A DNA stretch of 64,000 bases from Saprospira sp. CCB-QB6. Its GTDB lineage: Bacteria; Bacteroidota; Bacteroidia; Chitinophagales; Saprospiraceae. The position numbers and the translations under genes are program-made. The DNA lies in assembly GCF_028464065.1 (NCBI RefSeq), contig NZ_CP116808.1, positions 2,683,501 through 2,747,500 of the forward strand. Direction: 5' to 3'. Shown one piece after another: positions 913 to 60,712 of this stretch (the first letter of the stretch is position 1; the number at the start of each line of letters is the position of its first letter). The notes beneath the pieces are model-generated. The model was not told the origin of the DNA. It worked only from the letters and a program-made list of their open reading frames with translations, and did not search any database.

Positions 913-1048
913 GGGGCTGCCCCGCCCTTTGGGCGGGTCGGGCTGTCTCGCAGCTCGCTATTCGCTCGGCCCTGCGGCGGCTTTGCCGCCTTGGTCTGGC
1001 CTACGGCCACTGCTGCCCATCCCTCAGCCAAGGCGGCTGCGCGCCTTT
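913..1048 (+). repeat. Structured intergenic element, copy 1 (class A)
   Basis: First of 21 related elements. Outer stem GGCTG/CAGCC. Hairpin 1 CCCGCCC-TTT-GGGCGGG. Inner helix GCAG (just before CTCGC) with CTGC (just after hairpin 3). Hairpin 2 GGCGGC-TTT-GCCGCC. Hairpin 3 TGGCC-TAC-GGCCA. 3' end CATCCCTCAGCC. It starts eight bases after the MarR gene stop. Confidence 0.85.
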
Positions 1049-1141
1049 CTAGGTCCAAAATAAAATTTAAATTCTTTTCCCTTGTTAATGAGTTAGTTAT
1101 TGGGTTTTTTCTAAAAAACTTAGCTTTTTTTTACAGAAAAG

Positions 1142-1173
1142 TTTGGACAAACCAAATACCCGCCCTATATTTG
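1142..1173 (+). promoter_or_regulatory. Promoter of tRNA-Ser
   Basis: TTTG at 1142-1145, a 20-base spacer and TATATTTG at 1166-1173: a perfect Bacteroidota sigma-ABfr promoter, with the same boxes and spacing as the tRNA-Ala promoter at 24071. Confidence 0.8.
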
Positions 1174-1210
1174 CAATCGCAACGACGGAACAATGTCGTT
1201 CAATAACGCA

Positions 1211-1297
1211 GGAGGTTTGGCAGAGTGGTCGAATGCGTCGGTCTTGAAAACCGAAGACCCTTCACGGGGTCCGGGGGTTCGAATCCCTCAACCTCCG
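1211..1297 (+). tRNA. tRNA-Ser(TGA)
   Basis: An 87-base tRNA with a seven-pair acceptor stem GGAGGTT/AACCTCC and discriminator G at 1297. The anticodon stem TCGGT/ACCGA encloses loop CTTGAAA with anticodon TGA at 1245-1247. The variable arm is long, as expected for class II serine tRNA, and the T loop TTCGAAT is present. No CCA is encoded. A strong promoter lies at 1142 and a perfect terminator at 1305. Confidence 0.96.
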
Positions 1298-1304
1298 CTA
1301 CTAA

Positions 1305-1339
1305 AAGCCTGATGGTTAGCCATCAGGCTTTATTTTTTT
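1305..1339 (+). terminator. Rho-independent terminator after tRNA-Ser
   Basis: Perfect 11-bp stem AAGCCTGATGG/CCATCAGGCTT, loop TTAG, then a T-rich run. Confidence 0.9.
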
Positions 1340-1372
1340 GGGCCAAAATTTCTTTCTTTCTCAAAAGAGTTT

Positions 1373-1380
1373 TATTTTTG
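1373..1380 (+). promoter_or_regulatory. -7 box of the rplU-rpmA promoter
   Basis: TATTTTTG matches TAnnTTTG exactly, 63 bases before the rplU start. The -33 region is only T/C-rich, so the call rests on one box. Confidence 0.4.
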
Positions 1381-1443
1381 CCCGCTGCCGAAAGGCAAGT
1401 ATGCAATATTATTAATTATTCATTTTTCACTCATCCAGGTAAG

Positions 1444-1749
1444 ATGTACGCAATCGTAGAAATTAAAGGACAACAGTTTAAGGTGAGCGAGGGTCAGGAG
1501 ATCTTTGTTCATCGTCTGGATGCTAAAGAGGGTGATCAAGTTACTTTTGACAAAGTACTCCTCCTAGCAAAAGACGACACTTACCAAGTTGGTCAGCCTA
1601 CCGTAGAGGCTAAAGTTAACACCACTGTATTAGAGCACCTAAAAGGTGACAAGGTAATCGTTTTCAAAAAGAAGCGTCGTAAGGGCTATCGCAAGAAAAA
1701 CGGTCACCGTCAGTCTTTCACAAAAATTAAGATTGACAGCATTGCATAG
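1444..1749 (+). CDS. rplU: Ribosomal protein L21
   Basis: A 101-residue 50S subunit protein that binds 23S rRNA. The sequence opens [18 protein letters not shown] and carries the basic C-terminal segment [16 protein letters not shown], both typical of bL21; length is normal. The frame stays open upstream through the tRNA-Ser gene, so a longer ORF from 1225 is an artefact; ATG 1444 gives the standard N-terminus. It is followed after 58 bases by rpmA in the usual L21-L27 operon, with transcription probably from the box at 1373 and ending at the terminator at 2102. Confidence 0.97.
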
Positions 1750-1807
1750 GCTTATATCTATGCGAAGTTCATTATTTGTTAAATTAGTACGCTAAACATA
1801 TAAAGTC

Positions 1808-2080
1808 ATGGCACACAAGAAAGGTGTAGGTAGTACGGACAACGGACGGGATAGTAATAGTAAACGACTCGGTGTAAAGAAATACGGCGGTCAACTCGTT
1901 CGCTCTGGAAACATTATCGTTCGTCAGCGTGGTACAAAATTCCACCCCGGCGAAAATATGGGTAAAGGTAGAGACTTTACTCTTTTTGCTCTCTGCGACG
2001 GTATCGTAGAATTCAAGAAAGGCTATAAAAATCGCACTTTCGTGAATATCATCCCTGCAGAAGTAGAGGTAGTTTCTTAG
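1808..2080 (+). CDS. rpmA: Ribosomal protein L27
   Basis: A 90-residue protein of the 50S subunit whose N-terminal tail reaches the peptidyl-transferase centre. It begins directly with [20 protein letters not shown], so it belongs to the type that needs no N-terminal cleavage by a Prp-like protease. The core [21 protein letters not shown] and the glycine- and basic-rich middle are diagnostic of bL27. Second gene of the rplU-rpmA operon; a clear terminator starts 22 bases after the stop. Confidence 0.97.
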
Positions 2081-2101
2081 GAAATTTCACATCAATGATA
2101 T

Positions 2102-2144
2102 AAAAAGCTTTCTTTGGCCCTTGGGTTGGAGAAAGCTTTTTTTA
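2102..2144 (+). terminator. Terminator of rplU-rpmA
   Basis: Stem AAAAAGCTTTC/GAAAGCTTTTT around an 18-base loop, followed by TTTA. Confidence 0.85.
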
Positions 2145-2150
2145 TTTTGA

Positions 2151-2310
2151 GGGGCGTAGCCCCTTTTTTGCCTTTTAGGGGGCGCAATTGGCCTAGCGAT
2201 GTGCAGGGGTGGCCGAAGGCCAGACCTAGGCGGCAAAGCCGCCGCAGGGCCGAGCGAATAGCGAGCCCCGAAACGTAGCGCAGCAAGGCGAAGCCGCAGC
2301 TGAGGCCCCA
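2151..2310 (-). repeat. Structured intergenic element, copy 2 (class B)
   Basis: Read on the minus strand: outer stem GGCCT against AGGCC (outermost pair approximate). Hairpin 1 has an AGCTGCGGC arm against GCCTTGCT. Linker GCGCTACG. Inner helix GGGG/CCCC. Hairpin 2 GGCGGC-TTT-GCCGCC. Hairpin 3 TGGCC-TTC-GGCCA. 3' end CATCGCTAGGCC. An extra small hairpin GGGGC-GTA-GCCCC (2151-2163) lies beyond the core at 2190-2310. Confidence 0.85.
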
Positions 2311-2343
2311 AATTATCATTCATTTAAAAACTCCCCTTAGGAT

Positions 2344-3447
2344 ATGATTGCTCGACACACATTTAGCCAAGAAGATATAGCTGGCCGTTTAGCCAATATT
2401 CGGCGTTATGAGCCTGTATTAGATTATTATGGGCAGCAGCTCAAGGTAGAGGCGGCTTTGCTCAAGGCCATTGTGGCGGTGGAGTCTTCGGGCAATGCTC
2501 GAGCAGGAGCGGGGCGCTATAGTGGGGCCAAGGGGTTGATGCAGATTACGCGGCAGACTTGGATGGCGACCATTCAGCAGTTTCCAGATTTGCGTTATCG
2601 GAATACTAAATTGAGTGAGTATTTGGACCGAGATAAAAATGATGTTTGGGCCGATGCTTCTTTAAATACCTTGATTGGAACTTTGGCTTTGATCTTAAAG
2701 GCGCGGAGTTTGAGCCGGATGACGGGCCTGGCCATTTCGGCCAATGACCCCAAGGATGCACCTATGTTGCTCACGGCTTATAATGCTGGAGAGTACACGG
2801 TTATGAAAGCATTTGAACGGGCCAAAGCGGGGGGGAGTAAAGACCCACAGATGGATTTTTTGGATCAGCCGCATTTGCAGGGCGCCATTAAGGATGTGGT
2901 AGAGCGCTTTAATTTGAGCTGGGATACGGCGGCCAAGTTTAAAGAAATTAGCCAATATGCGGCCAAGGTATTTAGCTTTTTGGATGTTTTTCGGGGAAAT
3001 ACTAGTTCCACAAATAATACGGGAACAAACAACAACAGCGCGCCTCAAGAAGAAGATCCAAAGCCTACACCTACGCCAACGCCACAGCCAACTGTAAAAT
3101 ACTATACCGTCGTTTCGGGAGATACGGGCTACGGCATTGCTCGAAAGTTGGGTATTTCTTTCAGCAAATTATCGGCGGCGAATCCAGGGGTAAATTGGGC
3201 TCGTTTGTCTTTGGGTCAAAAGTTACAAGTAGGAGAGGGGCAGCCTCAGCCAGAGCAGCCAGTTCGGCCAGAGCCGCCCAAAACGCCTAAAATTTATACC
3301 GTTCAGCGAGGAGATAGTTTGGGCATTTTGTCGCGCAAATTTAATGTGAGTATAGCGCAAATTAAGGCCTTGAATAAAGATCAATTGCAGCGTTGGGGAA
3401 CTGTAGAAGGCTTCTTTGTGGGAGCCAAAATTAAGTTGCCACAGTAA
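2344..3447 (+). CDS. Lytic transglycosylase with two LysM domains
   Basis: A 367-residue peptidoglycan-active protein. Residues about 30-170 form an SLT-type transglycosylase fold: catalytic glutamate in AVESSGNARAGAG, then GAKGLMQITRQTW and LLTAYNAGEY. A Thr/Pro-rich linker near 225-250 leads to two LysM repeats (YYTVVSGDTGYGIARKLGIS and IYTVQRGDSLGILSRKFNVS) that bind glycan chains. It should cleave the MurNAc-GlcNAc bond with 1,6-anhydro product formation. Oddly, the N-terminus MIARHTFSQEDIAG has no signal peptide, and no better upstream start is seen, so export is unexplained. Convergent with the YihY-family gene; they share the terminator at 3463. Confidence 0.85.
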   Translation: MIARHTFSQEDIAGRLANIRRYEPVLDYYGQQLKVEAALLKAIVAVESSGNARAGAGRYSGAKGLMQITRQTWMATIQQFPDLRYRNTKLSEYLDRDKNDVWADASLNTLIGTLALILKARSLSRMTGLAISANDPKDAPMLLTAYNAGEYTVMKAFERAKAGGSKDPQMDFLDQPHLQGAIKDVVERFNLSWDTAAKFKEISQYAAKVFSFLDVFRGNTSSTNNTGTNNNSAPQEEDPKPTPTPTPQPTVKYYTVVSGDTGYGIARKLGISFSKLSAANPGVNWARLSLGQKLQVGEGQPQPEQPVRPEPPKTPKIYTVQRGDSLGILSRKFNVSIAQIKALNKDQLQRWGTVEGFFVGAKIKLPQ

Positions 3448-6930: not shown

Positions 6931-7049
6931 GGGGCCTCCGCCTCGCTGCGCTCGTCGGCGCTACGCTCCGCAGCTCGCTATTCGCTCGGCCCTTCAGCGC
7001 TTGCAGCGCTTCGGTCTGGCCTGCGGCCACTGCTGCACATCGCTAGGCC
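6931..7049 (+). repeat. Structured intergenic element, copy 3 (class B)
   Basis: Outer stem GGCCT/AGGCC. Hairpin 1 is imperfect (CCTCGCTGCGCTCG region). Linker GCGCTACG. Inner helix GCAG/CTGC. Hairpin 2 AGCGCT-TGC-AGCGCT. Hairpin 3 TGGCC-TGC-GGCCA. 3' end CATCGCTAGGCC. Confidence 0.85.
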
Positions 7050-9011: not shown

Positions 9012-9157
9012 AGGCGGCGAAGCCGCCCTGGCTTAGCGATGGGAAGGGGTGGCCGAAGGCCAGACCGAGCAAAATGAGCGCAGCGAAATTTTGTGAAGGG
9101 CCGAGCGAATAGCGAGCCCTGACACAGCCCGACCCGACCGCAGGGAGGGGCAGCCCC
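9012..9157 (-). repeat. Structured intergenic element, copy 4 (class A/B hybrid)
   Basis: Read on the minus strand: class A 5' end GGGGCTGCCCC and linker TCGGGCTGTG, but the 3' end is CATCGCTAAGCC, half class B. The outer pairing GGCT/AGCC is still kept. Inner helix GGG/CCC. Hairpin 2 is unusual and AT-rich, with arms CAAAAT and ATTTTG. Hairpin 3 TGGCC-TTC-GGCCA. Confidence 0.82.
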
Positions 9158-11712: not shown

Positions 11713-13245
11713 TTAGAAGGGGATATCATTTATGCTGCCGTTGTCATTATTCATTTTAGAGGAAAGGGGGCTGGGTTCGCCGCCTAGGTTGGAGGGCAAT
11801 TGGAAATTGCCGCCAGCTTGTTGTAGGCCAGTAAAGTCTTGATCTTCCAGATTAGAGAAGAGGGCGTATTGGCCATCCCAGCGTAGGCGAACGGTTTCTA
11901 GCGAACCATTACGGTGTTTAGCGATGATAATTTCGCCAATATTTTGAAGTGAGTTGCCTTCTTCATCTTCTAGGATATCGTAATATTCTGGACGATAGAT
12001 AAAGGTCACGATATCGGCATCTTGCTCGATGGCACCAGATTCCCGAAGGTCAGAAAGCATGGGGCGTTTGGAACCGCCACGGGTTTCTACGGCACGGCTC
12101 AGCTGCGAGAGGGCGATAACGGGCACATTGAGTTCTTTGGCCAGGGCCTTGAGTCCACGAGAGATGGTTGAAATCTCTTGTTCTCGGTTTCCGTTTTTAT
12201 CGCCACCGCCTGCGGTCATTAGTTGGAGGTAGTCAATAATAACGAGTTGGATATCGTGTTGCATTTTGAGGCGGCGGCATTTGGCGCGCAGTTCAAAGAT
12301 GCTAATGCCTGGGGTATCATCAATAAAGATGGGCATTTTGCCCAATTGGTCTACCTGAGCATAGAGTTGTTGCCATTCATAATCTTCGAGTTGGCCTTTA
12401 CGGAGTTTTTCGGAAGAGATTTGGGTTTGCATCGAAATAATCCGGTTGACTAGTTGGACGCTAGACATCTCTAAAGAGAAAAAGGCGACCCCTGAGCTAA
12501 ATTGTGCGGCTGCATTTTTGGCTACAGCTAGGGTGAAACTAGTTTTACCCATACCTGGACGGGCGGCAACGATGACCAAATCACTGGGTTGCCAACCAGA
12601 GGTTACTCGGTCCAGGGCGGTAAAGCCAGAAGGGACACCCGTGAGTCCATCTTCCTTTTCTGATAGCTCCTCGAATTGTTTGATGGCCATATTGACCAGG
12701 GTACTCATGCCCATAGAGCCTCTGCTGAGGTTTTGTTCGGTAATGCCAAAGAGGCCTTGTTCGGCCTTATCGAGGAGGTCGAATACATCGGCGGTATCTT
12801 CATAGGCCTCATTGATGGTTTCTGTAGACACCCGAATGAGCTCCCTTTGGATGAACTTTTGGGAAATGATGCGGGCGTGATATTCCACGTTGGCGGAAGA
12901 GGCTACGCGGTTGGTGAGTTCTACTAATTGGTAGGGGCCGCCCACGGCATCTAGTTTGCCCATTTTGCGGAGCTCTTCGGTAACGGTCAGCAAATCGACG
13001 GGATTACTATCTTCAAAGAGTTTGCAGATGGCCTTATAAATATGTTGGTGGCGTTCGACATAGAAGCTTTCGGGAGAAAGGATATCGATGACGATGGCCA
13101 GGGCATCTTTATCGAGCATGAGTGCGCCCAAGACGGCCTCTTCGAGGGCGGGGGCTTGGGGCTGTACTTTCCCAAAGGCGTTATTGCCTTGAGGTTGCTT
13201 GAAGCTCTTGAGATTTTTCTTTTGGTCAGTCTTGTTAAAATTCAT
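11713..13245 (-). CDS. dnaB: Replicative DNA helicase
   Basis: A 510-residue hexameric helicase that opens the replication fork. The N-terminal DnaB domain starts at APALEEAVLGALMLDKDAL. The RecA-like core has Walker A ARPGMGKTSF, Walker B VIIDYLQLMTA, and the motif LSQLSRAVETRGGSKRPMLSDLRESG. The arginine-finger and H4 regions follow (QDADIVTFIYRPEYY, IIAKHRNG). No intein or insertion. The C-terminal tail is Gly/Ser/Asn-rich and ends NDIPF. It is the first gene of a probable dnaB-DUF177-rpmF minus-strand group, 144 bases before the next gene. Confidence 0.96.
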   Translation of the reverse strand: MNFNKTDQKKNLKSFKQPQGNNAFGKVQPQAPALEEAVLGALMLDKDALAIVIDILSPESFYVERHQHIYKAICKLFEDSNPVDLLTVTEELRKMGKLDAVGGPYQLVELTNRVASSANVEYHARIISQKFIQRELIRVSTETINEAYEDTADVFDLLDKAEQGLFGITEQNLSRGSMGMSTLVNMAIKQFEELSEKEDGLTGVPSGFTALDRVTSGWQPSDLVIVAARPGMGKTSFTLAVAKNAAAQFSSGVAFFSLEMSSVQLVNRIISMQTQISSEKLRKGQLEDYEWQQLYAQVDQLGKMPIFIDDTPGISIFELRAKCRRLKMQHDIQLVIIDYLQLMTAGGGDKNGNREQEISTISRGLKALAKELNVPVIALSQLSRAVETRGGSKRPMLSDLRESGAIEQDADIVTFIYRPEYYDILEDEEGNSLQNIGEIIIAKHRNGSLETVRLRWDGQYALFSNLEDQDFTGLQQAGGNFQLPSNLGGEPSPLSSKMNNDNGSINDIPF

Positions 13246-13439
13246 AGCTAGCGGAGTCTTTCAAATAATTGCATATCAATTAGATGAGGTCTTAATTGGT
13301 GGTGCTTGTCTGATTTGCAGAGGGCAAATTTGCTAAGAAAAAAAGGGAATAAAAAATTTGTTCTTTGGAACTCATTTTTTTGTCTCCTTAAAATGGGCGT
13401 TTTGGGTTTTTTTCTGGCCTATATTTTTTTGGAGGGGAC

Positions 13440-13577
13440 AGGCGGCGAAGCCGCCGCAGGCTGAGGGGCTGTAGCAGGGCCGCCGTAGGCGGCAGACCGA
13501 GGCGCATTAGCGCCGAAGGGCCGAGCGAATAGCGAGCTGCGGAATGGCCCGACCCGACCAAAGGGAGGGGCAGCCCC
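13440..13577 (-). repeat. Structured intergenic element, copy 5 (class A)
   Basis: Minus strand: outer GGGGCTG/CAGCC. Hairpin 1 imperfect (CCTCCC, GGTCGGG). Inner helix GCAG/CTGC. Hairpin 2 GGCGC-TAAT-GCGCC. Hairpin 3 expanded to GCCGCC-TAC-GGCGGC. It lies seven bases beyond the stop of the downstream-facing lipoprotein gene at 13584. Confidence 0.85.
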
Positions 13578-13583
13578 AAATTA

Positions 13584-14330
13584 TTATTCTTCAAGAATTA
13601 AAATTTCTTCTGTAATTGGGCCATAGACTTTTTCTTTTTGGGCATTGTAGAGGCTGAGATGAATTTTGTGTTGGCCTGGGGGGAGATTTTGGAGGCTGTG
13701 GGCCTGCCATTTTTGGATCCACCATTGTCGATCTTGGTTGAGTTCGAGCAGGACCTGATAGTTTTGGGGGCCAAGTTGGCAATTATAGCGATAAAAATCG
13801 ACAATCACATTTTGGGCTTCTTCGGGGGAGAATTGGCCGAGGGGGCTGGCATAGGCAATTTGGGCTTTGGGGCTGGCTAGGCTTTTTCGGACCGATTGAT
13901 TGAGGGTTTCTATATCTCGGCAAACAAAGGCTTGGGGAGCGCGGATGACTTGGCCGTTGGGGGCAGAGAGGAAGGCTTTGAATTGGTGGGGACCGTTGGG
14001 AATATTGATTTGAAAATTGCGATCATTTTGGGCGGCATGCAGGCTATCGTCTAGCACTAGATGAAGATGTAGGCCCAAGGGAATATACTTTTGGCCTTTT
14101 TTGCGCAGGCTATCAACGGCTTGGCCCAATAAAAGGTTTTGAACAATCATTGTGAGGCGGCCATTTTGGTAGTTGAAGCCGCGCATTTGGATACTACTAT
14201 CTTGATCGAGGGCCAAGGCGGGCAGGGGCAAAAGCTTAACTTTTGAGAAGTCCTTTTTTTTATTAGAAGTTTGGCAGCTTAGGAGGAAAAAAGGAAAGAG
14301 AAAGAGAAAAAATGCTAATTTTACGCGCAT
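13584..14330 (-). CDS. Lipoprotein of unknown function
   Basis: A 248-residue protein with signal peptide and lipobox LLSC (Cys19), so it is probably an outer- or inner-membrane lipoprotein. I do not recognise a family. The body has alternating short beta-like stretches (MIVQNLLLGQAVDSLRKKG, LHLHLVLDDSLH, QFKAFLSAPNGQVI) and the end HKIHLSLYNAQKEKVYGPI. This could be a repeat of immunoglobulin-like beta sandwiches, but that is a guess. It stands alone, divergent from the PorP-like gene across 207 bases. Confidence 0.7.
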   Translation of the reverse strand: MRVKLAFFLFLFPFFLLSCQTSNKKKDFSKVKLLPLPALALDQDSSIQMRGFNYQNGRLTMIVQNLLLGQAVDSLRKKGQKYIPLGLHLHLVLDDSLHAAQNDRNFQINIPNGPHQFKAFLSAPNGQVIRAPQAFVCRDIETLNQSVRKSLASPKAQIAYASPLGQFSPEEAQNVIVDFYRYNCQLGPQNYQVLLELNQDRQWWIQKWQAHSLQNLPPGQHKIHLSLYNAQKEKVYGPITEEILILEE

Positions 14331-14537
14331 AAACCTATAATTTTGGGGCCCCCTTCTTTTGGGGCAGATTATTTTAAAGCATTTAAGCCTAAGAGTTAAG
14401 CCCTTTTGAACTACTTAGTTTAGTTAAAAAATAACTATATTTAACGCTAAATCAACATTTAGGGTCTGGTAGCCTTGACCGGACTAAAAGAAAGCGAAAA
14501 CTCTGAAGCATTAACATTGTACAAAATTATCAGTCAG

Positions 14538-15611
14538 ATGAAAATTTTAAAACCTATACTCCTTTTTTGCATCCTCGCAAGCTGGGGGCAACTGCAGGCG
14601 CAGGACGTTCACTTTAGTATGTTCGACATGTCGCCAGTGAACCTCAACCCTGCCTATACGGGCTTTTACGAGGGGACCTTCCGTGTGGGAGGAATCTATC
14701 GTAGCCAATGGCAAGGTTTGGGCACCAACAGTACGCTACCTCAGGGCGCCACAGGCAATGCATACCCTACCTCTTTTTCGGGCTATCAAACGCCTTCTGC
14801 CTTTATTGATGCCCCTTTGATTGGGATCAAGGGAAAAGACAAATTTGGTCCCGCTAAACATTGGTTTGGTGCTGGAATTAACTTCTATAACGATCAAGTT
14901 TCTTATTTGTCGACCCTCAAAGCAGAATTGGCCCTAGCTTTTCATGCTGGCCTTGGCGCTCGAGGCAACACTCGCCTCTCTTTTGGCTTTAAAGGGGGAA
15001 TTATCCAACAGTCTGTTGGCGACGCTAGCGACTATACCTTTGAAAATGATATCACTGGAGGTACTGCCGAAACTTTTGCTAGCGGAACTGCTAGCGGAAT
15101 GGATTTCTCTGCAGGTTTGATGCTTTCTCATGTGGCCGCTGGTTGGAATATCGAGGCGGGCGTGGCTTATAACCACCTCAACTCTCCCGAATTGACGATC
15201 ACTAACGATGTCTATAGCTTGCCTTCTAATATCATCGGTAGCGTTCGCTCTAATATTAGCCTAACGCGCAAGTTGTCTGTTCGCCCTATGGCTTTTGTTC
15301 AGTACATGGACGCTGCTTTTGAGGCCAACCTTCAAGCACTTGCCGCTATCCACTTCAATGATACTAAGGACTTCAATCTATTGGCAGGTGCTGGTTACCG
15401 CCTCTCGGATGCTGCCTTTGCTCGCCTTGGCCTAGAATATCGCGGCCTTTCTTTTGGTGTAGCCTATGACTTTAACCTTTCTGGTTTGTCTAACAGCAAC
15501 TATAGCGGCAACAATCTTCGTGGCCAAGGCTTCGAGTTGGGCCTTACTTATATCGCCAAAATTTACAGAACACCTGTGGTCAAAGAAATTCTCTTTAACC
15601 CTCGTTTCTAA
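14538..15611 (+). CDS. PorP/SprF family outer-membrane protein (T9SS-associated)
   Basis: About 357 residues from ATG 14538; the 21 extra residues of the longer frame are not signal-like. Signal peptide ends at LQAQDVHFS. The family hallmark QDVHFSMFDMSPVNLNPAYTG, then GTFRVGGIYRSQW, and repeated beta-strand segments to the C-terminal RTPVVKEILFNPRF, define the PorP/SprF family. Members work with type IX secretion and gliding, several of them anchoring large adhesins at the surface. The neighbour 235 bases downstream is a PorE-like protein, a usual PorP partner; structured repeat copy 6 lies between them. Confidence 0.88.
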   Translation: MKILKPILLFCILASWGQLQAQDVHFSMFDMSPVNLNPAYTGFYEGTFRVGGIYRSQWQGLGTNSTLPQGATGNAYPTSFSGYQTPSAFIDAPLIGIKGKDKFGPAKHWFGAGINFYNDQVSYLSTLKAELALAFHAGLGARGNTRLSFGFKGGIIQQSVGDASDYTFENDITGGTAETFASGTASGMDFSAGLMLSHVAAGWNIEAGVAYNHLNSPELTITNDVYSLPSNIIGSVRSNISLTRKLSVRPMAFVQYMDAAFEANLQALAAIHFNDTKDFNLLAGAGYRLSDAAFARLGLEYRGLSFGVAYDFNLSGLSNSNYSGNNLRGQGFELGLTYIAKIYRTPVVKEILFNPRF

Positions 15612-15628: not shown

Positions 15629-15745
15629 GGGGCCTCCGCAGCTCCGCTGCGGCGCTACGCTACGGGGCTCGCTATTCGCTCGGCCCATCGGCGCTAAAGC
15701 GCCTCGGTCTGGCCCTCCGGGCCACCCGCTCCGCATCGCTAGGCC
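15629..15745 (+). repeat. Structured intergenic element, copy 6 (class B)
   Basis: Outer GGCCT/AGGCC. Hairpin 1 CCGCAGC-TCC-GCTGCGG. Linker GCGCTACG. Inner helix CGGG/CCCG with one-base offset. Hairpin 2 GGCGC-TAAA-GCGCC. Hairpin 3 GGCCC-TCC-GGGCC. It begins 17 bases after the PorP-like stop. Confidence 0.87.
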
Positions 15746-18584: not shown

Positions 18585-18717
18585 GCAGGCCCGAAGGGCC
18601 GCAGGCCTAGCGATGTGGAGGGGGGCGGCGGAGCCGCAGACCCAGGCGCTTTGCGCCGCAGGGCCGAGCGAATAGCGAGCCCCGAAACGTAGCGCCGCAG
18701 CGAAGCTGCGGAGGCCC
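18585..18717 (-). repeat. Structured intergenic element, copy 7 (class B)
   Basis: Minus strand: outer GGCCT/AGGCC. Hairpin 1 CCGCAGC-TTC-GCTGCGG. Linker GCGCTACG. Inner helix GGGG/CCCC. Hairpin 2 GGCGC-AAA-GCGCC. Hairpin 3 TGCGGC-TCC-GCCGC. An extra hairpin GGCCC-GAA-GGGCC lies at the far end. Confidence 0.85.
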
Positions 18718-23707: not shown

Positions 23708-23826
23708 GGGGCCCGCGGCCAGCACAGCTGGCCGCCGCTATGCTGCGCCGCTCGCAGGTCTGCTCGGCCCTGCAGCCCTGCGGGCTTTGGTCTGGCCTGC
23801 GGCCACGGCTGCGCAGCGCTGGGCCA
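23708..23826 (+). repeat. Structured intergenic element, copy 8 (class C)
   Basis: Class C ends: GGGGCCCGCGG at 5' and GCGCAGCGCTGGGCC at 3'; outer GGCCC/GGGCC. Hairpin 1 GCGGCCAGC-ACA-GCTGGCCGC. Second pairing GCTGCG/CGCAGC. Inner helix GCCG/CGGC. Hairpin 2 AGCCC-TGC-GGGCT. Hairpin 3 TGGCC-TGC-GGCCA. It starts nine bases after the M19-like stop. Confidence 0.87.
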
Positions 23827-24552: not shown

Positions 24553-24667
24553 GGCCTAGCGATGCGGCGGGGTGGCCCGAAGGGCCAGACCCAGCGGGCG
24601 TAGCCCGCGCAGGGCCGAGCGAGCAGCGAGCCCCAAAGCGTAGCGCCCGCCTGTGGCGGGAGGCCCC
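24553..24667 (-). repeat. Structured intergenic element, copy 9 (class B)
   Basis: Minus strand: outer GGCCT/AGGCC. Hairpin 1 CCCGCC-ACA-GGCGGG. Linker GCGCTACG. Inner helix GGGG/CCCC. Hairpin 2 CGGGC-TAC-GCCCG. Hairpin 3 TGGCCC-TTC-GGGCCA. 3' end CATCGCTAGGCC. Confidence 0.87.
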
Positions 24668-30146: not shown

Positions 30147-30266
30147 GGGCCTCCGCTGCGGCTTCGCCTTGCGGCGCTACGCTTTGGGGCTCGCTATTCG
30201 CTCGGCCCTTCGGCGGCTTCGCCGCCTCGGTCTGCCCTGACGGCCACCCCGCCGCATCGCTAGGCC
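30146..30266 (+). repeat. Structured intergenic element, copy 10 (class B)
   Basis: Outer GGCCT/AGGCC. Hairpin 1 arms CCGCTGCGGC and GCCTTGCGG. Linker GCGCTACG. Inner helix GGGG/CCCC. Hairpin 2 GGCGGC-TTC-GCCGCC. Hairpin 3 damaged (TGCCCTGACGGCCA). It overlaps the preceding stop codon by one base. Confidence 0.86.
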
Positions 30267-30485: not shown

Positions 30486-30606
30486 GAGCGGCTGAGGGAT
30501 GGTAGGGGGGGGCCGTAGGCCAGACCGAGCAGGCAAAGCCTGCGAAGGGCCGAGCGAGCAGCGAGCCCCCGCACAGCCCGACCCGAGCGAAGCGAGGGGC
30601 AGCCCC
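30486..30606 (-). repeat. Structured intergenic element, copy 11 (class A)
   Basis: Minus strand: outer GGGGCTG/CAGCC. Hairpin 1 CTCGC-TTC-GCTCG. Inner helix GGGG/CCCC. Hairpin 2 CAGGC-TTT-GCCTG. Hairpin 3 GGCC-TAC-GGCC. It lies seven bases from the TauE-like stop. Confidence 0.85.
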
Positions 30607-33603: not shown

Positions 33604-33739
33604 TGGCCCAGCGCTGCGCAGCCGTGGCCCGAAGGGCCAGACCCAAGCCGCCGCAGGTGGCTGCAGGGCCGAGCAGCCTTGCGAGCGGCGCAGCATAGCG
33701 GCGGCCAATCGAGGCGAAGCCGAGCTGGCCGCGGGCCCC
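33604..33739 (-). repeat. Structured intergenic element, copy 12 (class C)
   Basis: Minus strand, class C ends. Hairpin 1 long: arms GCGGCCA and TGGCCGC. GCTGCG/CGCAGC second pairing. Inner helix GCCG/CGGC. Hairpin 2 GCAGCC, GGCGGC region imperfect. Hairpin 3 GGCCC-TTC-GGGCC. It lies inside the 3' untranslated region of tex. Confidence 0.83.
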
Positions 33740-36769: not shown

Positions 36770-36888
36770 GGGGCTGCCCCGCCCTGCGGGCGGGTCGGGC
36801 TGTGCGTGGGCTCGCTGCTCGCTCGGCCCTGCGCAGGCTTCGCCTGCTGGGTCTGGCCTTCGGCCACCCACTGCCATCCCTCAGCCAA
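36770..36888 (+). repeat. Structured intergenic element, copy 13 (class A)
   Basis: Outer GGGGCTG/CAGCC. Hairpin 1 CCCGCCC-TGC-GGGCGGG. Inner helix TGGG/CCCA. Hairpin 2 GCAGGC-TTC-GCCTGC. Hairpin 3 TGGCC-TTC-GGCCA. 3' end CATCCCTCAGCC. Confidence 0.88.
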
Positions 36889-40547: not shown

Positions 40548-40742
40548 GGGGCTGCCCCTCCCGCCGGGTTGAAACCCAGCGCAAAGCGGTATCGCTTTGC
40601 GAAGCTATACAAAATGAGGGTTGAAACCCTCATGAATTATTGGTCGGGTCGGGCTGTGTCAGGGCTCGCAGTTCTGCTCGGCCCTGCGCCGCTAAGGCGG
40701 CTGGGTCTGCGCCTTCGGCGCACCCCTTTCCATCCCTCAGCC
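40548..40742 (+). repeat. Structured intergenic element, copy 14 (class A, expanded)
   Basis: Class A ends with outer GGGGCTG/CAGCC, but hairpin 1 holds about 75 extra bases with three nested hairpins: GGGTT-GA-AACCC, CGCAAAGCG-GTAT-CGCTTTGCG, ATGAGGGTT-GA-AACCCTCAT. Inner helix GGG/CCC. Hairpin 2 GCCGC-TAA-GGCGGC imperfect. Hairpin 3 TGCGCC-TTC-GGCGCA. Confidence 0.86.
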
Positions 40743-40878: not shown

Positions 40879-41017
40879 CAGGCGGCGAAGCCGCCGCAGG
40901 CTGAGGGATGGATAGCAGTGGCGCGAAGCGCCAGACCCAGCCGCCGAAGGCGGCGCAGGGCCGAGCGAACTGCGAGCTGCGGCACAGCCCGACCCGCCTG
41001 CAGGGCGGGGCAGCCCC
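40879..41017 (-). repeat. Structured intergenic element, copy 15 (class A)
   Basis: Minus strand: outer GGGGCTG/CAGCC. Hairpin 1 CCCGCC-TGC-AGGCGGG imperfect. Inner helix GCAG/CTGC. Hairpin 2 GCCGCC-TTC-GGCGGC. Hairpin 3 TGGCGC-TTC-GCGCCA. It lies 12 bases after the proS stop. Confidence 0.87.
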
Positions 41018-42510: not shown

Positions 42511-42727
42511 CGGTTTATTGGTATATTTTTTGGTCCATTAATGAGGTGGACCTGAACGATAAATGCTTATTAAAGGTGGCCTTTTTGCTTATGGAACGTT
42601 AAAGTTTAGGCAAGCAGTTGCTTTTCAAAACTTAAGCTTTAAAAAAGCTGTATATTCATTAGGCGGCCAAAAGGCCCACAAAGTTAAAAAAAGGACTAAA
42701 AGTACAGTTGAAAATACCGAAATATCT

Positions 42728-44014
42728 ATGAAAAATCAAGCACTCCCTATTTTCTTGGCCTTCTTCGCCATCTTTTTAATGGGGCCCCAAGCTTGGGCCC
42801 AATACGATGACATTTATTTTGATGGAGAAGAGGAGCCTGTGGCTCAGCAGCAGAACTATCAGGAGCCGCCTACGACTTACGATCAGAATAGTTATGATCG
42901 TCCGGAGCAAGAATACGTTGATGCTCGCTATGATAATGCTTATGCGGCTCGTATTCGTCGATTTCATCGTCCTGCTCGGGGTTTTAATTATTACAGTAAT
43001 TATTATGTAGATAGTTATTGGTACAACCCTTATGCCCCTGGGATGAACATTTATTGTTACAATAGCTATCGTCCTCGTCGTTGGAGACGTTGGGGCTGGA
43101 GTTATAGTTATGGTTGGGGGTACAGTAATTCTTATTATGATCCTTGGTATAACCCCTACAATAACTGGGGGTATAACCCTTATAACAATTGGGGCTGGGG
43201 CTATAATCCTTATAGAAGAGCTTATAATCAAGGGTATTGGAATGGTTACCATAATGGTTATTATGGAGGAGGAAACAACTGGTATTATGAAAGCTCTGCG
43301 CCTAATGCGGCCAATTATGTAACGACTCGTTACAGTCGTGGTAGTGATCCTAATATTCAAAGAAGTCGAACTCGAGCAGTAAGTGGGTATGACACTCATC
43401 AGCGACAAGTTGCGCCAGCATCCTTGCATACTAGTGGGGTGATGACTCCTAATCGTTCAAGAGGGAGTGATTTGGGGACAGTGAATAGTGGAGGAAATAA
43501 TGGTCGGAGCAATCCTCAGACGCAAACGGCTGTGCCGAATACGGGTCGTTCAAGAGGGAGTGATTTGGGGACAGTGAATAGTGGAGGAAATAGTGGTCGG
43601 AGCAATCCTCAGACGCAAACGGCTGTGCCGAATACGGGTCGTTCAAGAGGGAGTGATTTGGGGACAGTGAATAGTGGAGGAAATAGTGGTCGGAGCAATC
43701 CTCAGACGCAAACGGCTGTGCCGAATACGGGTCGTTCAAGAGGGAGTGATTTGGGGACAGTGAATAGTGGAGGAAATAGTGGTCGGAGCAATCCTCAGAC
43801 GCAAACGGCTGTGCCGAATACGGGGCGTTCAAGAGGGAGTGATTTGGGCGGAATGAATAACAATCGTACGAATAGAAGCAATCGTCCTACTCGTTCATAT
43901 AATAACTCATCTCGTTCCTCATCTCCTTCTCGCTCCTCTAGTAGAAGTAGCAGTCGAACGAATAGTTCTTCTCGTTCTTCCTCAAAATCTTCTGGTAGAA
44001 GTAGAGGTCGTTAA
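42728..44014 (+). CDS. Exported low-complexity protein with Tyr/Asn-rich and tandem Arg/Ser-rich regions
   Basis: About 428 residues from ATG 42728. The longer frame from 42563 adds a segment before the signal peptide (IFLAFFAIFLMGPQAWAQ). Residues about 85-195 are rich in Tyr, Trp, Asn and Gly (YNPYNNWGYNPYNNWGW). Then a 31-residue unit repeats four times and partly a fifth (key residues GRSRGSDLGTVNSGGNSGRS), encoded by 93-bp direct repeats at 43454-43848. The C-terminus is Ser/Arg-rich. It has no known domain; an RNA-, matrix- or appendage-binding secreted protein is conceivable. The repeats probably vary in copy number between strains. Confidence 0.72.
   Translation: MKNQALPIFLAFFAIFLMGPQAWAQYDDIYFDGEEEPVAQQQNYQEPPTTYDQNSYDRPEQEYVDARYDNAYAARIRRFHRPARGFNYYSNYYVDSYWYNPYAPGMNIYCYNSYRPRRWRRWGWSYSYGWGYSNSYYDPWYNPYNNWGYNPYNNWGWGYNPYRRAYNQGYWNGYHNGYYGGGNNWYYESSAPNAANYVTTRYSRGSDPNIQRSRTRAVSGYDTHQRQVAPASLHTSGVMTPNRSRGSDLGTVNSGGNNGRSNPQTQTAVPNTGRSRGSDLGTVNSGGNSGRSNPQTQTAVPNTGRSRGSDLGTVNSGGNSGRSNPQTQTAVPNTGRSRGSDLGTVNSGGNSGRSNPQTQTAVPNTGRSRGSDLGGMNNNRTNRSNRPTRSYNNSSRSSSPSRSSSRSSSRTNSSSRSSSKSSGRSRGR
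43454..43848 (+). repeat. 93-bp tandem repeat inside the exported protein
   Basis: Four full copies (43454, 43547, 43640, 43733) and a partial fifth from 43826. Copies 2-4 are nearly identical; copy 1 differs by AAT versus AGT and the last copy ends GGGGC instead of GGGTC. Because 93 is divisible by three, the reading frame is kept, and the opposite strand is also open by chance. Confidence 0.95.
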
Positions 44015-44110: not shown

Positions 44111-44223
44111 GGCCTAGCGATGTGGAAGGGTGGCCGAAGGCCAGACCGAGGCGCTTTAGCGCCGAAGGGCCGAGCAGAACTGCGAGCCCTGAAACGTAGC
44201 GCCTGCCGCAGGCAGGAGGCCCC
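44111..44223 (-). repeat. Structured intergenic element, copy 16 (class B)
   Basis: Minus strand: outer GGCCT/AGGCC. Hairpin 1 CCTGCC-TGC-GGCAGG. Linker GCGCTACG. Inner helix AGGG/CCCT, a unique compensating pair. Hairpin 2 GGCGC-TAAA-GCGCC. Hairpin 3 TGGCC-TTC-GGCCA. It lies between two terminators. Confidence 0.87.
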
Positions 44224-47632: not shown

Positions 47633-47992
47633 CTAATCTTCATCCTCCTCATCCTCCTCATCATCCCAGTCAAAGTCGTCATCATCGTCCTCCTCTTCCT
47701 CATCGTCCTCATCGTCTTCCTCCTCCTCATCATCATCGTCCCAATCAAAATCTTCTTCCTCCTCTTCCTCCACAGCCAATTCAACTTCCTCCTCAACCTC
47801 TTCCACAACGGCCTCTACGACCACATCTTCTACAATCTCTTCCGCCACTTTTTCCTCTACAGCCTCAATTTTTTCCACTTTTTCCTTTTCCTGCCCACCC
47901 AATTGAGCCGTAGAAAACTGCACTTTGGTCAATCCTCGCTTGAAAAATTTGGCTCTCTCTTCCTTCGAACGGCTAGATACTGATCTTTTCAT
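47633..47992 (-). CDS. Acidic low-complexity protein
   Basis: A 119-residue protein. The first 30 residues are basic (MKRSVSSRSKEERAKFFKRG), the middle is Glu/Val-rich (EEKVAEEIVEDVV), and the C-terminal 45 residues are almost all Asp/Glu, with two DFDWDD motifs. The DNA is also strongly biased (GAA/GAT-type codons), so other frames stay open by composition. It has no known domain; a DNA-mimic, metal- or cation-buffering or chaperone-like tail are possible. The start MKR is followed by normal codons, which supports a real gene. Confidence 0.6.
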   Translation of the reverse strand: MKRSVSSRSKEERAKFFKRGLTKVQFSTAQLGGQEKEKVEKIEAVEEKVAEEIVEDVVVEAVVEEVEEEVELAVEEEEEEDFDWDDDDEEEEDDEDDEEEEDDDDDFDWDDEEDEEDED

Positions 47993-48166: not shown

Positions 48167-48291
48167 GGGGCTGCCCCTGCGGCCTTTCAGGCCTTGGGTC
48201 GGGCTGTGTCGTGGCTCGCAGCTCTGCTCGGCCCTGCGGCGCAAAGCGCCTTGGTCTGCGGCTGCGCCGCACCACTATCCATCCCTCAGCC
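48167..48291 (+). repeat. Structured intergenic element, copy 17 (class A)
   Basis: Outer GGGGCTG/CAGCC. Hairpin 1 GGCC-TTTCA-GGCC. Inner helix GTGG/CCAC, seen only in this copy. Hairpin 2 GGCGC-AAA-GCGCC. Hairpin 3 TGCGGC-TGC-GCCGCA. Large changes in both arms at once. Confidence 0.88.
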
Positions 48292-51507: not shown

Positions 51508-51649
51508 TGGCCCAGCGCTGCGGAGTGGGTGGCCGGAGGCCAGACCGAGTTTTTTGAGCGTAGCGAAAAAAACGAAGGGCCGAGCGAATAGCGAGCCCCG
51601 CAGCATAGCGGCGGCCGACCTAGCCAAAGGCTAGCCGGCCGCGGGCCCC
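51508..51649 (-). repeat. Structured intergenic element, copy 18 (class C)
   Basis: Minus strand, class C ends. Hairpin 1 GCCGGCTAGCC-TTT-GGCTAGGTCGGC. Second pairing GCTGCGG/CCGCAGC. Inner helix GGG/CCC. Hairpin 2 is AT-rich with arms GTTTTTTT..G and C..AAAAAAC around CGCTACG, identical to copy 19. Hairpin 3 TGGCC-TCC-GGCCA. Confidence 0.86.
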
Positions 51650-55898: not shown

Positions 55899-56046
55899 GG
55901 GGCTGCCCCTCGCTTCGCTCGGGTCGCTCCCTTCTGGGCTCGCAGTTCTGCTCGGCCCTTCGTTTTTTTCGCTACGCTCAAAAAACTCGGTCTGGCCTTC
56001 GGCCACCCTACAGGCAGCTCAGCCTGCGGCGGCTTCGCCGCCTGTA
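55899..56046 (+). repeat. Structured intergenic element, copy 19 (class A)
   Basis: Outer GGGGCTG/CAGCC. Hairpin 1 CTCGC-TTC-GCTCG. Inner helix GGG/CCC. Hairpin 2 is the same AT-rich module as in class C copy 18. Hairpin 3 TGGCC-TTC-GGCCA. Extra hairpin GGCGGC-TTC-GCCGCC near the 3' end. It lies between the murF stop and its terminator. Confidence 0.86.
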
Positions 56047-58747: not shown

Positions 58748-58935
58748 AATTTATAGGGATTTTTATCTATACAAATGGAGATTGATTCTCTTTGCTGCTT
58801 TTCTTTTCAAAAGCAAATCCAATTCTTGAAGTTAAGGCAAAATGGCAGCTTTCCAAAGCTTTAGCTGACATTTTGGGTGTTTTCGGTTCCTATTCCGTGA
58901 CAATTTTTCCGATTGTCGATTTTCGGTCCAATAGG
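58748..58935. other. Upstream region of clpB
   Basis: About 190 bases with no gene. No consensus promoter for either direction found by eye. Confidence 0.35.
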
Positions 58936-59088
58936 GGGCGGCGAAGCCGCCGCCAAGGCGCGCAGCGCCTCGGCTGAGGGATGGACAGCAGTGGCCGTAG
59001 GCCAGACCAAGGCGCTGCAAGCGCCGCAGGGCCGAGCGAATAGCGAGCTGCGACACAGCCCGACCCGACCGCAGGGAGGGGCAGCCCC
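58936..59088 (-). repeat. Structured intergenic element, copy 20 (class A)
   Basis: Minus strand: outer GGGGCTG/CAGCC. Hairpin 1 CCTCCC-TGC-GGTCGG imperfect. Inner helix GCAG/CTGC. Hairpin 2 GGCGC-TTGCA-GCGCC. Hairpin 3 TGGCC-TAC-GGCCA. An additional GGCGGC-TTC-GCCGCC hairpin lies at its end. Confidence 0.87.
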
Positions 59089-59100
59089 AAAAAATAGCAG

Positions 59101-59140
59101 AAAAAAAGCGAATACTACAATTTGCTGCAGCATTCGCTTG
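59101..59140 (-). terminator. Terminator of the di-haem cytochrome gene
   Basis: On the minus strand: AAGCGAATGCTGCA against TGTAGTATTCGCTT (two G-T pairs), then seven T. Confidence 0.75.
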
Positions 59141-59143
59141 GGG

Positions 59144-60283
59144 TTAATTTTTATAATAATTGAGGGCTTCATCGCCCATTTTTGCCATGTTGTCAATAAA
59201 AAAACGGAGGTCGCCCAGTTGTTCGTCGCTCATTCGTTCTTTAGTGAAAATGGGGACGCCTTTCCAGTTTTTGCCCGATTGATAGCGGTGAGCGGAATAA
59301 ATGGAAAGTTTGGCTTTGCCTTCAAAATTGGCGGCTAATCGCTTGAAGGTTTTTTGGCGGCTATCGAGTTTGAAGCGGCTATAGCGTTTTTCTTCATGGC
59401 AGTGGAGGCAGCTTTTTTCGTAAATTTTGCGGCCATTGAGAAAGCTATTGCTAGCAGGGGAGACCATTTGGCGGGCGCGTACATCTGGTGGGCGTACCAA
59501 GTGGGCTGGATAAACCTCTGAGTAATAGCGGCGAATGAGGTTTACGGCACGGGCGTTACTGCGGTTATTTTTGATAGAGTATTCGACCTTTTCCCAATCC
59601 TCTTTTTTCATTTCTAGTTCGCCCATTTTTAGTTCTAGAGTCCAGAGATAAGCCAGAATGGCTTCTTGTTCCCAGTCTTCCATTTTTCGGCCATCGGCAA
59701 AAAGTTGATTGCAAGCATTCATGGCTTTGCGGAGGTCAAAATGGGCATCTTTTAGGAGTGGAGCATGGGGCCCGTCGTAGAGTTTGGCAAAGTCATTATT
59801 AAAGAAGAAGATGCGGTTAATCATGCCGTAGAAACTAGGGCCAGGAAGAAAAGAAAGTTGGTTAGAGTCTACATATTTGAGACGTTTTTGGGGGTCTAAA
59901 TTATCTAAACTAGGTTCTTCTCGAACGCTGAGGTGACAAGAGCTACAACTTAGCGTCTTACTCAATAATTCGCTACTAGAGCCATCTTTGTTAGTAAATC
60001 CCTTTTCAATTAAATCTTTACCTTGTTGAATCATTAATTGATCTTTGGCCTTGGCCCAGTCTTTTGGTTGGTTGGTTTTGATTTTACCCAATTTGCCCAT
60101 TACTGTCCAGAGTGGAGTGCTTTCAGTCATCTGAAAATCAGATTGCTCTTCCTCTCTTTGAAGTTGTGGGCTAGTAAAGGCTGTAGCTAAGCCCCAACAG
60201 AGGCCCAAGACCGAAATGGCAATTTGCCAAGGTTTGGGGCGGATATATAAAATTGGTTTTAGCATATTGCTTGTTTTGCTCAT
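59144..60283 (-). CDS. Di-haem c-type cytochrome
   Basis: A 379-residue protein. Signal-anchor WQIAISVLGLCWGLATAFT after a basic N-terminus (ATG 60283; ATG 60265 is an alternative start). Two haem motifs: SCSSCH near 113-117 and CLHCH near 285-289. The pattern differs from the MauG/peroxidase pair at 4905: no YMHDGRF segment. It resembles cytochromes of the thiosulfate dehydrogenase (TsdA) type, with long helical stretches (LWTVMGKLGKIKTNQPKDW, SFYGMINRIFFFNND), but this is not certain. TTAGNCTAA sites lie upstream. Precedes structured copy 20. Confidence 0.72.
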   Translation of the reverse strand: MSKTSNMLKPILYIRPKPWQIAISVLGLCWGLATAFTSPQLQREEEQSDFQMTESTPLWTVMGKLGKIKTNQPKDWAKAKDQLMIQQGKDLIEKGFTNKDGSSSELLSKTLSCSSCHLSVREEPSLDNLDPQKRLKYVDSNQLSFLPGPSFYGMINRIFFFNNDFAKLYDGPHAPLLKDAHFDLRKAMNACNQLFADGRKMEDWEQEAILAYLWTLELKMGELEMKKEDWEKVEYSIKNNRSNARAVNLIRRYYSEVYPAHLVRPPDVRARQMVSPASNSFLNGRKIYEKSCLHCHEEKRYSRFKLDSRQKTFKRLAANFEGKAKLSIYSAHRYQSGKNWKGVPIFTKERMSDEQLGDLRFFIDNMAKMGDEALNYYKN

Positions 60284-60342
60284 CTTGGAATATAGTGTGT
60301 GAAGAACTACTTAAAAAACAGGATATTAATGCCTTCTAGTTC

Positions 60343-60475
60343 CTTAGGCTAAAAATAGGCCAAAAGTCTGCTATTAAAACAGCTTGATAGACTTAGACTA
60401 GGGATGAAATTAGCCGAAGTTAATTTAAAATTGAGGGAAATAGGGAGATTTTAAAAAGTAGATAAGTTAGACTAA
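60343..60475 (-). promoter_or_regulatory. Upstream region of the di-haem cytochrome gene with TTAGNCTAA-like sites
   Basis: About 300 bases without a gene. TTAGGCTAA (60343-60351), TTAGACTA (about 60392) and TTAGACTAA (about 60467) resemble half-sites of DtxR-type boxes seen before the TonB receptor at 39306. The spacing is irregular and full-length boxes are absent. Confidence 0.35.
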
Positions 60476-60540
60476 TTAAAGAGAGCTAAAAAGGCTGATC
60501 ACAATTTAATTGTTTTAAAAGAGATTATAAAACAGTACGT

Positions 60541-60577
60541 AAAAAAAGCCAGCTCTCCTCAGAGAACTGACTCTTTT
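60541..60577 (-). terminator. Terminator of the outer-membrane receptor gene
   Basis: On the minus strand: AGTCAGTTCTC/GAGAGCTGGCT (two G-T pairs), loop TGAG, then seven T. Copy 21 lies between stop and terminator. Confidence 0.75.
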
Positions 60578-60582
60578 ATTTA

Positions 60583-60712
60583 GGGGCCCGCGGCCGCCCT
60601 TTTTAGCGGGGCGGCCGCCGCTAGGCTGCGCAGCTCGCTATTCGCTCGGCCCTGCGGCGCTTGCAGCGCCTTGGTCTGGCCCTACGGGCCACTGCTGCGC
60701 AGCGCTGGGCCA
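60583..60712 (+). repeat. Structured intergenic element, copy 21 (class C)
   Basis: Class C ends. Hairpin 1 GCGGCCGCCC against GGGGCGGCCGC. Second pairing GCTGCGCAGC with GCTGCGCAGC. Inner helix GCAG/CTGC. Hairpin 2 GGCGCT-TGC-AGCGCC. Hairpin 3 TGGCCC-TAC-GGGCCA. An extra GGCGGC-TTC-GCCGCC hairpin follows at 60731-60745. Confidence 0.88.

Follow-up and report, generated by a model that had tools for sequence, protein, structure and literature searches.

A branched intergenic repeat of Saprospira that keeps its sites, exchanges its modules and rarely has a same-orientation copy within 2 kb

What keeps the arms of a folded intergenic sequence paired when copy after copy changes them? The question is raised by a stretch of 64,000 nucleotides from Saprospira sp. 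CCB-QB6, a marine predatory bacterium of the same GTDB genus as Saprospira grandis Lewin; this stretch (positions 2683501-2747500 of a 4.24 Mb genome) is called the window here. An earlier note on it, made from the letters alone, had described 21 structured elements with covarying helices and ascribed them to selection on a folded RNA or a DNA cruciform. We find that the element is a branched repeat of seven helices, about 115-130 bp long, intergenic and non-coding, that nearly all mapped copies keep their sites in related genomes while hairpins are exchanged, and that copies in the same orientation are nearly absent within 2 kb of each other. We propose, with a probability of roughly 0.45, that the repeat spread before the compared Saprospira species split, that its copies exchange modules by switching associated with replication forks and that close direct copies are purged.

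Architecture, copies and spread

Read 5' to 3', the element opens with a T-run (TTTTGGGG) and GG, followed by helix P1, hairpin 1 (hp1), P3 and an asymmetric internal loop (CTACGTTTC opposite TGCACAT, plus covarying variants). The middle consists of P4, with four pairs, CTCGC-loop-GCTC and P5, a GGCC/GGTC helix that encloses hairpin 2 (hp2); hairpin 3 (hp3) and the closing arms finish the order. Conserved blocks, CTCGC..GCTCGGCC, GGTCT and CAKCGC, lie between the modules. P1 defines three types, A (GGCCT/AGGCC), B (GGCTG/CAGCC) and C (GGCCC/GGGCC), and P3 reads GCG/CGC or GGG/CCC. In 302 parsed copies, drawn from this genome, Lewin, DSM 2844 and some other loci, orthologues included, P1 is entirely Watson-Crick in 269, and P4 is GCAG/CTGC in 111, GGGG/CCCC in 73, AGGG/CCCT in 41 and GCCG/CGGC in 18, other forms being rarer. 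The common order of parts and the density of about one copy per 3 kb given in the earlier note both hold; its structure is corrected by an hp1 that is highly variable between copies (a palindrome array at 40550-40742), by P5, which it had not described, and by the 5' T-run.

Other structured sequences accompany the element. A hairpin with tandem TC.TC mismatches (GC-TNC-GC, TC/TC flanks) recurs in hp1 and hp2 of many copies and in the core, and the same hairpin type also adjoins elements (AGTCGCTTCGCTCCT); an additional hairpin, TGCGGC..GCC, lies immediately 3' of many copies. A second module, GTTACTCCC-N3-GGTCGTCGAAC...TTGTTGTC, has 20 copies in 624 kb of this genome, 15 of them near or inside elements and often at the element's TACG or CATCG points. 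Intergenic DNA outside the elements holds 545 perfect hairpins (stem of at least 6, loop 3-5) in blocks of this genome, as against 105-127 after shuffling.

A covariance model trained on 16 copies, of which the window contributed one, and run with a maximum E of 10 returned exactly 21 window matches, the weakest at E 8.9e-8, which is the number claimed before. The core GCTCGGCC occurs 25 times in the window where 1.97 would be expected; the four further cores (8509-, 23903+, 53411+, 56893+) were set aside by eye, being without the remaining parts. Genome-wide there are 1,285 exact cores, 641 and 644 on the two strands, and the reversed control gives 3 + 4 = 7; at about 120 bp apiece, so many copies would make about 3.6% of the genome, in a family without an Rfam match for the copies tested. 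The earlier note's statement that no copy lies inside a gene agrees with the S. grandis WH plasmid, where none of 22 cores falls in an annotated gene of an incomplete gene table. The matches in the window are:

915-1029, plus strand: element, type B
2190-2307, minus strand: element, type A
6933-7049, plus strand: element, type A
9030-9155, minus strand: chimeric element, 5' half type B and 3' end A-like, P1/P3 partly mispaired
13459-13575, minus strand: element, type B
15631-15745, plus strand: element, type A
18604-18716, minus strand: element, type A
23710-23825, plus strand: element, type C, tail-to-tail with the 24553 copy across a tRNA-Ala
24553-24665, minus strand: element, type A
30148-30266, plus strand: element, type A, starting at the preceding gene's stop codon and close tail-to-tail with 30490
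30490-30604, minus strand: element, type B
33605-33737, minus strand: element, type C
36772-36886, plus strand: element, type B, near the remnant of a minus-strand copy that is intact in both relatives
40550-40742, plus strand: element, type B, with a REP-type palindrome array occupying hp1
40899-41015, minus strand: element, type B, close tail-to-tail with the 40550 copy
44111-44221, minus strand: element, type A
48169-48291, plus strand: element, type B
51509-51647, minus strand: element, type C, AT-rich hp2
55901-56024, plus strand: element, B variant with a different P3/J module
58972-59086, minus strand: element, type B
60585-60711, plus strand: element, type C

Across the family, cores of the TNNT type were found in 36 of 298 genomes, representing 24 of 112 genera, with 1 to about 790 copies each, and in neither of two same-genus genomes (90% and 63% complete); in the order outside the family, one of 106 genomes had a match, a single one. 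The reversed control of the order-wide count was clean (787 vs 0), whereas the reversed pattern used for the family-wide count occurs inside many elements and so gives no valid control. Model-scored copy counts per genome are lower bounds, at most 61 candidates having been scored in each. Two metagenome-assembled genomes (MAGs) labelled Flavobacteriales and Chitinophagales hold copies that fit the model (E 5.9e-6 and E 4.2e-4), and three exact 19-mer matches outside Bacteroidota were dropped because by eye the remaining element was missing. With one type A copy as query, blastn matched two Saprospira plasmids, no phage and none of 20,395 E. coli records; one IMG/VR viral contig of 14.4 kb contains the exact 19-base core.

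The family had been called unrecognised, and our searches agree. Against Rfam at gathering score the whole window matched two tRNAs only, and over two copies in 880-2350, up to E 5, a single 27-base match of E 3 touched a 5' end. The S. grandis WH genome paper (PMC10508125) does not mention these repeats, and a literature search returned no title or opening of an abstract that names them, a mention in two 2012 S. grandis genome papers being possible. By eye, the element also differs from the palindromes beside Y1/RAYT-like genes.

Covariation and the kind of pairs that are kept

The claim that the arms change together is borne out. In the 21 window copies 96.5% of 630 cells are paired (shuffled mean 76.6%, none of 500 shuffles as high), and the covariation score is 0.456 as compared with 0.116 after shuffling and at most 0.101 with partners slid; P4, the four-base match reported before CTCGC and after hairpin 3, is 97.6% paired. 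A cross-genus model search gave 68 matches in 57 loci, where 91.2% of 1699 cells are paired (69.3% shuffled), 352 cells are changed on both sides (101 shuffled) and the score is 0.371 (0.111 shuffled, at most 0.070 slid). All seven helices covary in both sets, P3 being the weakest outside Saprospira (75.9%). Both alignments were fitted to the model and therefore lean towards it; the slid control and the unfitted pair counts point in the same direction. Outside P5, the loci of other genera show 345 both-sided changed cells vs 16 one-sided.

Which pairs fill these helices? Among the 302 parsed copies, a set biased to intact ones since 231 of 533 cores were dropped unparsed (90 without the 3' motif, 63 without GGTCT, 54 without the 5' motif, 13 duplicates, 11 at edges), P4, whose positions are fixed, holds 1160 Watson-Crick, 4 G.T, 12 A.C and 32 other cells. 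The three hairpins, for which the stem search favours Watson-Crick pairs and penalises G.T and A.C equally, hold 4701, 23, 12 and 4, with hp2 and hp3 together at 3112 Watson-Crick, 1 G.T and 6 A.C; outside P5, other genera give 1325, 20, 9 and 120. Nine tRNAs taken as a control have 195 Watson-Crick, 13 G.T and no A.C pairs (Fisher p 1.5e-8 vs P4). When copies are sorted by gene context (gene calls here and below come from an in-house script, except for the plasmid annotation), the ratio of G.T to A.C is 23:9 with both neighbours sense, 18:16 with both antisense, and 10:9 and 7:4 in the remaining two, and the non-Watson-Crick share is, in the same order and with divergent gaps included, 4.3, 3.9, 4.3 and 3.6%.

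Selection on a folded RNA is disfavoured, because the stems are nearly pure Watson-Crick and G.T is about as rare as A.C, unlike in tRNAs; the RNA reading is weak also because pairing is equally good in every gene layout. Of the two kinds of selection offered in the earlier note, the first is weakened in this way; pairing of distant arms around exchanged modules still needs selection or correction on DNA. An intergenic family of bacteria may thus covary strongly without being a functional RNA, and missing G.U pairs, module exchange at fixed sites and symmetry between the strands are tests that can be transferred to other families.

Shared sites, exchanged modules and spacing

The comparison of sites covered 124 kb of this genome and, in Lewin and DSM 2844, 120 kb apiece. 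Nucleotide identity in aligned blocks is 81-90% between the relatives and this genome and 91-95% between Lewin and DSM 2844. From this genome, 36 of 36 mapped copies have a counterpart at the same site and in the same orientation in Lewin (6 unmapped) and 35 of 36 in DSM 2844 (6 unmapped); from Lewin to DSM 2844 it is 34 of 35 (3 unmapped). Altogether 105 of 107 mapped comparisons share the copy, and the two absences are one rearranged site in DSM 2844. In the reverse direction, by cores, 36 of 38 in Lewin and 36 of 38 in DSM 2844 are found here.

At these fixed sites the modules themselves change. Between this genome and Lewin, hp2 identity is 0.68 at the same site vs 0.60 at unrelated sites, with flanks at 0.69-0.76, and P4a differs at 17 of 36 sites, of which 7 keep all four pairs in both genomes and 6 more keep three or four. 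The site of position 59029 differs between Lewin and DSM 2844 chiefly in hp2. At that of position 9098, where the flanks are much alike, DSM 2844 has a type A copy and the other two genomes have one whose 5' end is type B; the copy here is itself a B/A chimera with mispaired P1 and P3. Hairpins are thus replaced, and distant arms altered together, at fixed sites, which is module exchange, and part of what had looked like compensation arises because whole hairpin modules are exchanged, altering both arms together.

Differences between strains touch the element as well. A minus-strand copy of Lewin and DSM 2844 near 37.0 kb has suffered an internal deletion in this genome, both ends being left. 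This genome lacks a 2.27 kb segment that both relatives have and that runs from the 5' end of one copy to the 3' end of the one after it; in Lewin (93459-95728 of the joined 120 kb) it comprises a plus-strand copy and an open reading frame (ORF) of 334 amino acids (aa), up to the 3' end of a minus-strand copy, and at its site here stand a terminator-like hairpin, its T-run, GG, 83 bp and then the minus-strand copy. Of two plus-strand copies 1.4 kb apart in this genome and Lewin, the second is gone from DSM 2844, where homology breaks off 47-67 bp beyond the first copy and starts again at the second copy's 3' end, 3.0 kb of different DNA lying in the interval. In both of the larger differences examined, therefore, one breakpoint or more coincides with the edge of an element, and in one of them a rare close direct pair was lost. 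A stretch of about 3 kb found only in DSM 2844 (12352-15346 of its locus), between two element-marked points, contains a masked part and ORFs in which portions of one recur in another.

Orientation revealed a further regularity. In profile searches of the chromosome, neighbours alternate in 185 of 219 cases (binomial tail 1.2e-26 vs 50%), in a test on 400 kb fetched afterwards in 106 of 124 (1.2e-16), and in 291 of 343 combined; on the S. grandis WH plasmid, of whose 53.2 kb the analysis covered 50.0 kb, 22 cores alternate strictly, in 21 of 21 neighbours, through the paa/pur clusters. Long-range alternation as such is superseded by a short-range exclusion. Same-orientation pairs of any rank number 4, 6, 27, 48 and 73 in the first five kilobases of distance, taken one by one, and 45-69 in each later kilobase; within 2 kb they are 10 of 145 pairs, where about half would be expected. 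Only 4.7% of copies have their nearest same-orientation copy closer than 2 kb, as compared with 37.7% after shuffling. Neighbours are antiparallel, therefore, because same-orientation copies are nearly absent within 2 kb, and this near-absence is a newly found layout. In MAG-63, of a second genus, same-orientation pairs make up 2 of 14 below 2 kb (p 0.006).

The two inverted arrangements are not equal. Over the same five kilobases tail-to-tail pairs number 73, 47, 30, 22 and 22 (20-37 per kb from 2 kb on) and head-to-head pairs 1, 14, 34, 34 and 33; 60 of 64 neighbours less than 600 bp apart are tail-to-tail. Copies outside such close tail-to-tail pairs alternate in 117 of 128 cases and, in the later 400 kb, in 69 of 79, and next to a close pair in 35 of 58 and 11 of 19. 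Tail-to-tail segments are short and 46 of 93 are gene-free, whereas head-to-head segments average 3.7 kb and all bear genes. The 5' ends lie close to where genes start or stop (median 124 and 55 bp), and part of the tail-to-tail excess exists because 5' ends abut genes and copies sit in gaps. The genes on either side point the same way in 114 of 153 gaps within head-to-head blocks, in 85 of 128 across one copy and in 31 of 44 across two.

Two other accounts of the layout were rejected. Loss of single copies behind same-orientation neighbours left no remnant above chance by profile in 34 intervals (three weak matches of E 31-50 plus an opposite one of E 33), although alignment does show one loss, near 37.0 kb. 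Bracketing of transcription units, or mRNA panhandles, suits neither the gene directions just given nor neighbours that are only slightly more alike than random pairs, nor copies inside the plasmid pur/paa clusters. Elsewhere in the window, 93-bp tandem repeats in five register copies (43360-43917) lie within a 483-aa ORF (42563-44014), and a low-complexity ORF on the minus strand (47633-47992) is by eye rich in Asp/Glu codons.

Explanations and comparison with known repeats

How could a repeat hold its sites and renew its parts? Under the explanation we favour, the element spread before the compared Saprospira species split, with no clear new insertion since, and copies stay where they are while exchanging hp1, hp2, hp3, the P4 domain and whole types. 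The likeliest mechanism would be gene conversion or short-tract template switching at replication forks, where hairpins would cause stalling and the conserved stretches that separate the modules would supply homology to another copy. Where two direct copies lie within about one Okazaki-fragment length (about 2 kb), the same process would delete the DNA between them, and deletion of close direct arrangements would leave close neighbours antiparallel. Base pairing would be maintained on DNA, in both strands, rather than in a transcript. According to PMC4627823, in E. coli and B. subtilis RecA-independent deletion between direct repeats becomes much rarer as they lie further apart, and slippage is tied to Okazaki-fragment length. 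The orientation exclusion may then be taken as a natural distance curve for DNA loss between direct repeats.

Several results weigh against this explanation. The same source describes deletion independent of distance in Deinococcus. Among the 17 sites with changed P4, three have an unparsable arm and one has a single pair left in one genome. Neighbour similarity is 0.43-0.45 vs 0.40 for random pairs, with 52 to 94 of 2000 draws as high, so that exchange is not clearly local. MAG-63 shows no alternation overall (29 of 52), about 14 of 16 in a small sample having vanished in this larger one. Between 0.6 and 1.5 kb there are 44 tail-to-tail vs 8 head-to-head pairs, and as both arrangements are inverted, deletion alone leaves that excess unexplained. 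The two large strain differences are not simple deletions from repeat to repeat, and the 2.27 kb one could be an insertion just as well as a loss. Finally, the G.T conserved in P5 (50 of 64 cells in other genera, 21 of 21 in the window) and the G.T excess in hp1 (22 vs 6 A.C) suit a single-stranded role better. The proposed mechanism fits most, not all, of the evidence. A wider idea, which we consider improbable as a whole, is that folded DNA is the repeat's own means of upkeep, a transposase-free, module-wise overwriting at forks that also sets the tail-to-tail layout; if so, the layout of a genome would record how forks slip in nature, and pairs standing tail to tail may by now serve as structural sites or delimit segments that can be exchanged.

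A structured RNA, whose transcribed copies fold and act in mRNA as a 3' stabiliser, processing site or insulator while selection keeps the pairs, would account for helices that covary strongly within the window as well as in other genera, the conserved unpaired blocks and the P5 G.T, and the G.T to A.C ratios of sense and antisense contexts differ in the expected direction, though not significantly (Fisher p 0.13). We consider it unlikely, as the stems are without the G.U pairs that the tRNA control has, pairing is as good between divergent genes, orientation is independent of genes (79, 57, 34 and 27 in four contexts) and RNA folding clearly beats shuffles in only three of five copies (z -1.1, +0.2, -2.2, -2.0, -2.2). 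Somewhat less probable still is a chromosome-organising DNA site, in which tail-to-tail antiparallel pairs bridged by a putative protein would mark loops of a few kilobases. The tail-to-tail peak in the first two kilobases, the predominance of tail-to-tail pairs below 600 bp, the alternation outside close pairs and the sites common to species would suit it; orientation order, however, does not extend past about 4 kb and breaks down from one side of a close pair to the other (11 of 22), and close pairs are partly expected of copies confined to gaps with 5' ends abutting genes. The element is not a terminator either, because its T-run is on the wrong side, and ordinary hairpin-plus-T terminators adjoin copies.

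Of about the same low probability as the organising site is a non-autonomous transposable element of the miniature inverted-repeat transposable element (MITE), BOX or REPIN kind that is still spreading, or whose pairs bound mobile segments, by means of some enzyme acting in trans. The patchy spread, with one to hundreds of cores per genome and uneven within genera, the 5' T-run, the copies on two plasmids and the element-bounded copy plus 334-aa ORF, where this genome retains T-run and GG, would fit; that segment is the sole clear candidate among comparisons that nearly all share the copy, the other copy missing here is an internal deletion, the 3' flank has no copy of the T-run, and members of close pairs score lower (65.2 bits, n=112) than singles (69.9, n=237), the opposite of REPINs. 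Two enzyme families, PF01797 and PF00078, were searched in this genome. Y1 transposase ORFs of 141, 161 and 178 aa lie at 2.877, 3.624 and 3.945 Mb, each adjoining its own palindromic repeats unrelated to the element, as in RAYT/REP-like systems, here in a Bacteroidota genome; by eye, therefore, the element is not the REP of a local RAYT. The palindrome of the 2.877-Mb locus also occupies hp1 of the 40550-40742 copy. A 565-aa frame with a reverse-transcriptase domain (locus about 700-2523) has a long upstream inverted repeat resembling a retron msr-msd; it is the only reverse transcriptase found, no link to the element was seen, and a retroelement was rejected. That these are ordinary REP/BIME-type repeats, antiparallel by chance, is very improbable: REPs are likewise described as abundant, palindromic and intergenic (PMC2817692, PMC3733652), but length, branched fold and layout differ, and the alternation tails given above speak against chance.

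Several known repeats resemble the element in part. BOX of Streptococcus pneumoniae, compared by description only (PMC3049150), is similarly modular and intergenic, with conserved ends, a variable middle, a complex predicted fold and slow insertion. It is described as varying by the number of tandem boxB units, whereas our element swaps hairpins one for one, and no boxB-like series was seen by eye in the 21 window copies; about half of BOX insertions are given as common to all strains, against nearly all compared sites here, in a family of about 1,300 copies. ERIC resembles the element in size (about 120-130 bp), intergenic position and structure, but is predicted as a single long stem-loop (PMC2267715), while the element's fold is branched and backed by covariation, and the type A copy had no blastn match in E. 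coli genomes. REP, BIME and REPIN repeats with RAYT (PMC3116915, PMC2817692, PMC3733652) share high copy number, palindromes, intergenic position and inverted doublets. As described there, BIMEs alternate within a cluster, the element between gaps kilobases apart; REPs measure 20-40 bp, carry a GTAG or CGTC tag and frequently show G.T pairs, a feature that PMC3733652 reads as a sign that REPs possibly act as RNA, against 115-130 bp and a 5' TTTTGGGG here; and REPIN doublets are the better conserved unit, while the element's close pairs, inverted too, score below singles. Of MITE features, there is no T-run duplication at the 3' flank, and one candidate empty site, one internal deletion and one replaced segment were found. 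Deletion-prone direct repeats (PMC4627823) share the distance-limited loss of E. coli and B. subtilis, measured there as deletion and suggested here by natural genome-wide layout. On the best reading the element works like an interspersed repeat of the BOX/ERIC/REP type, yet forms a separate family, membership being shown in none of these; what is new relative to them is its layout and the exchange of modules at shared sites.

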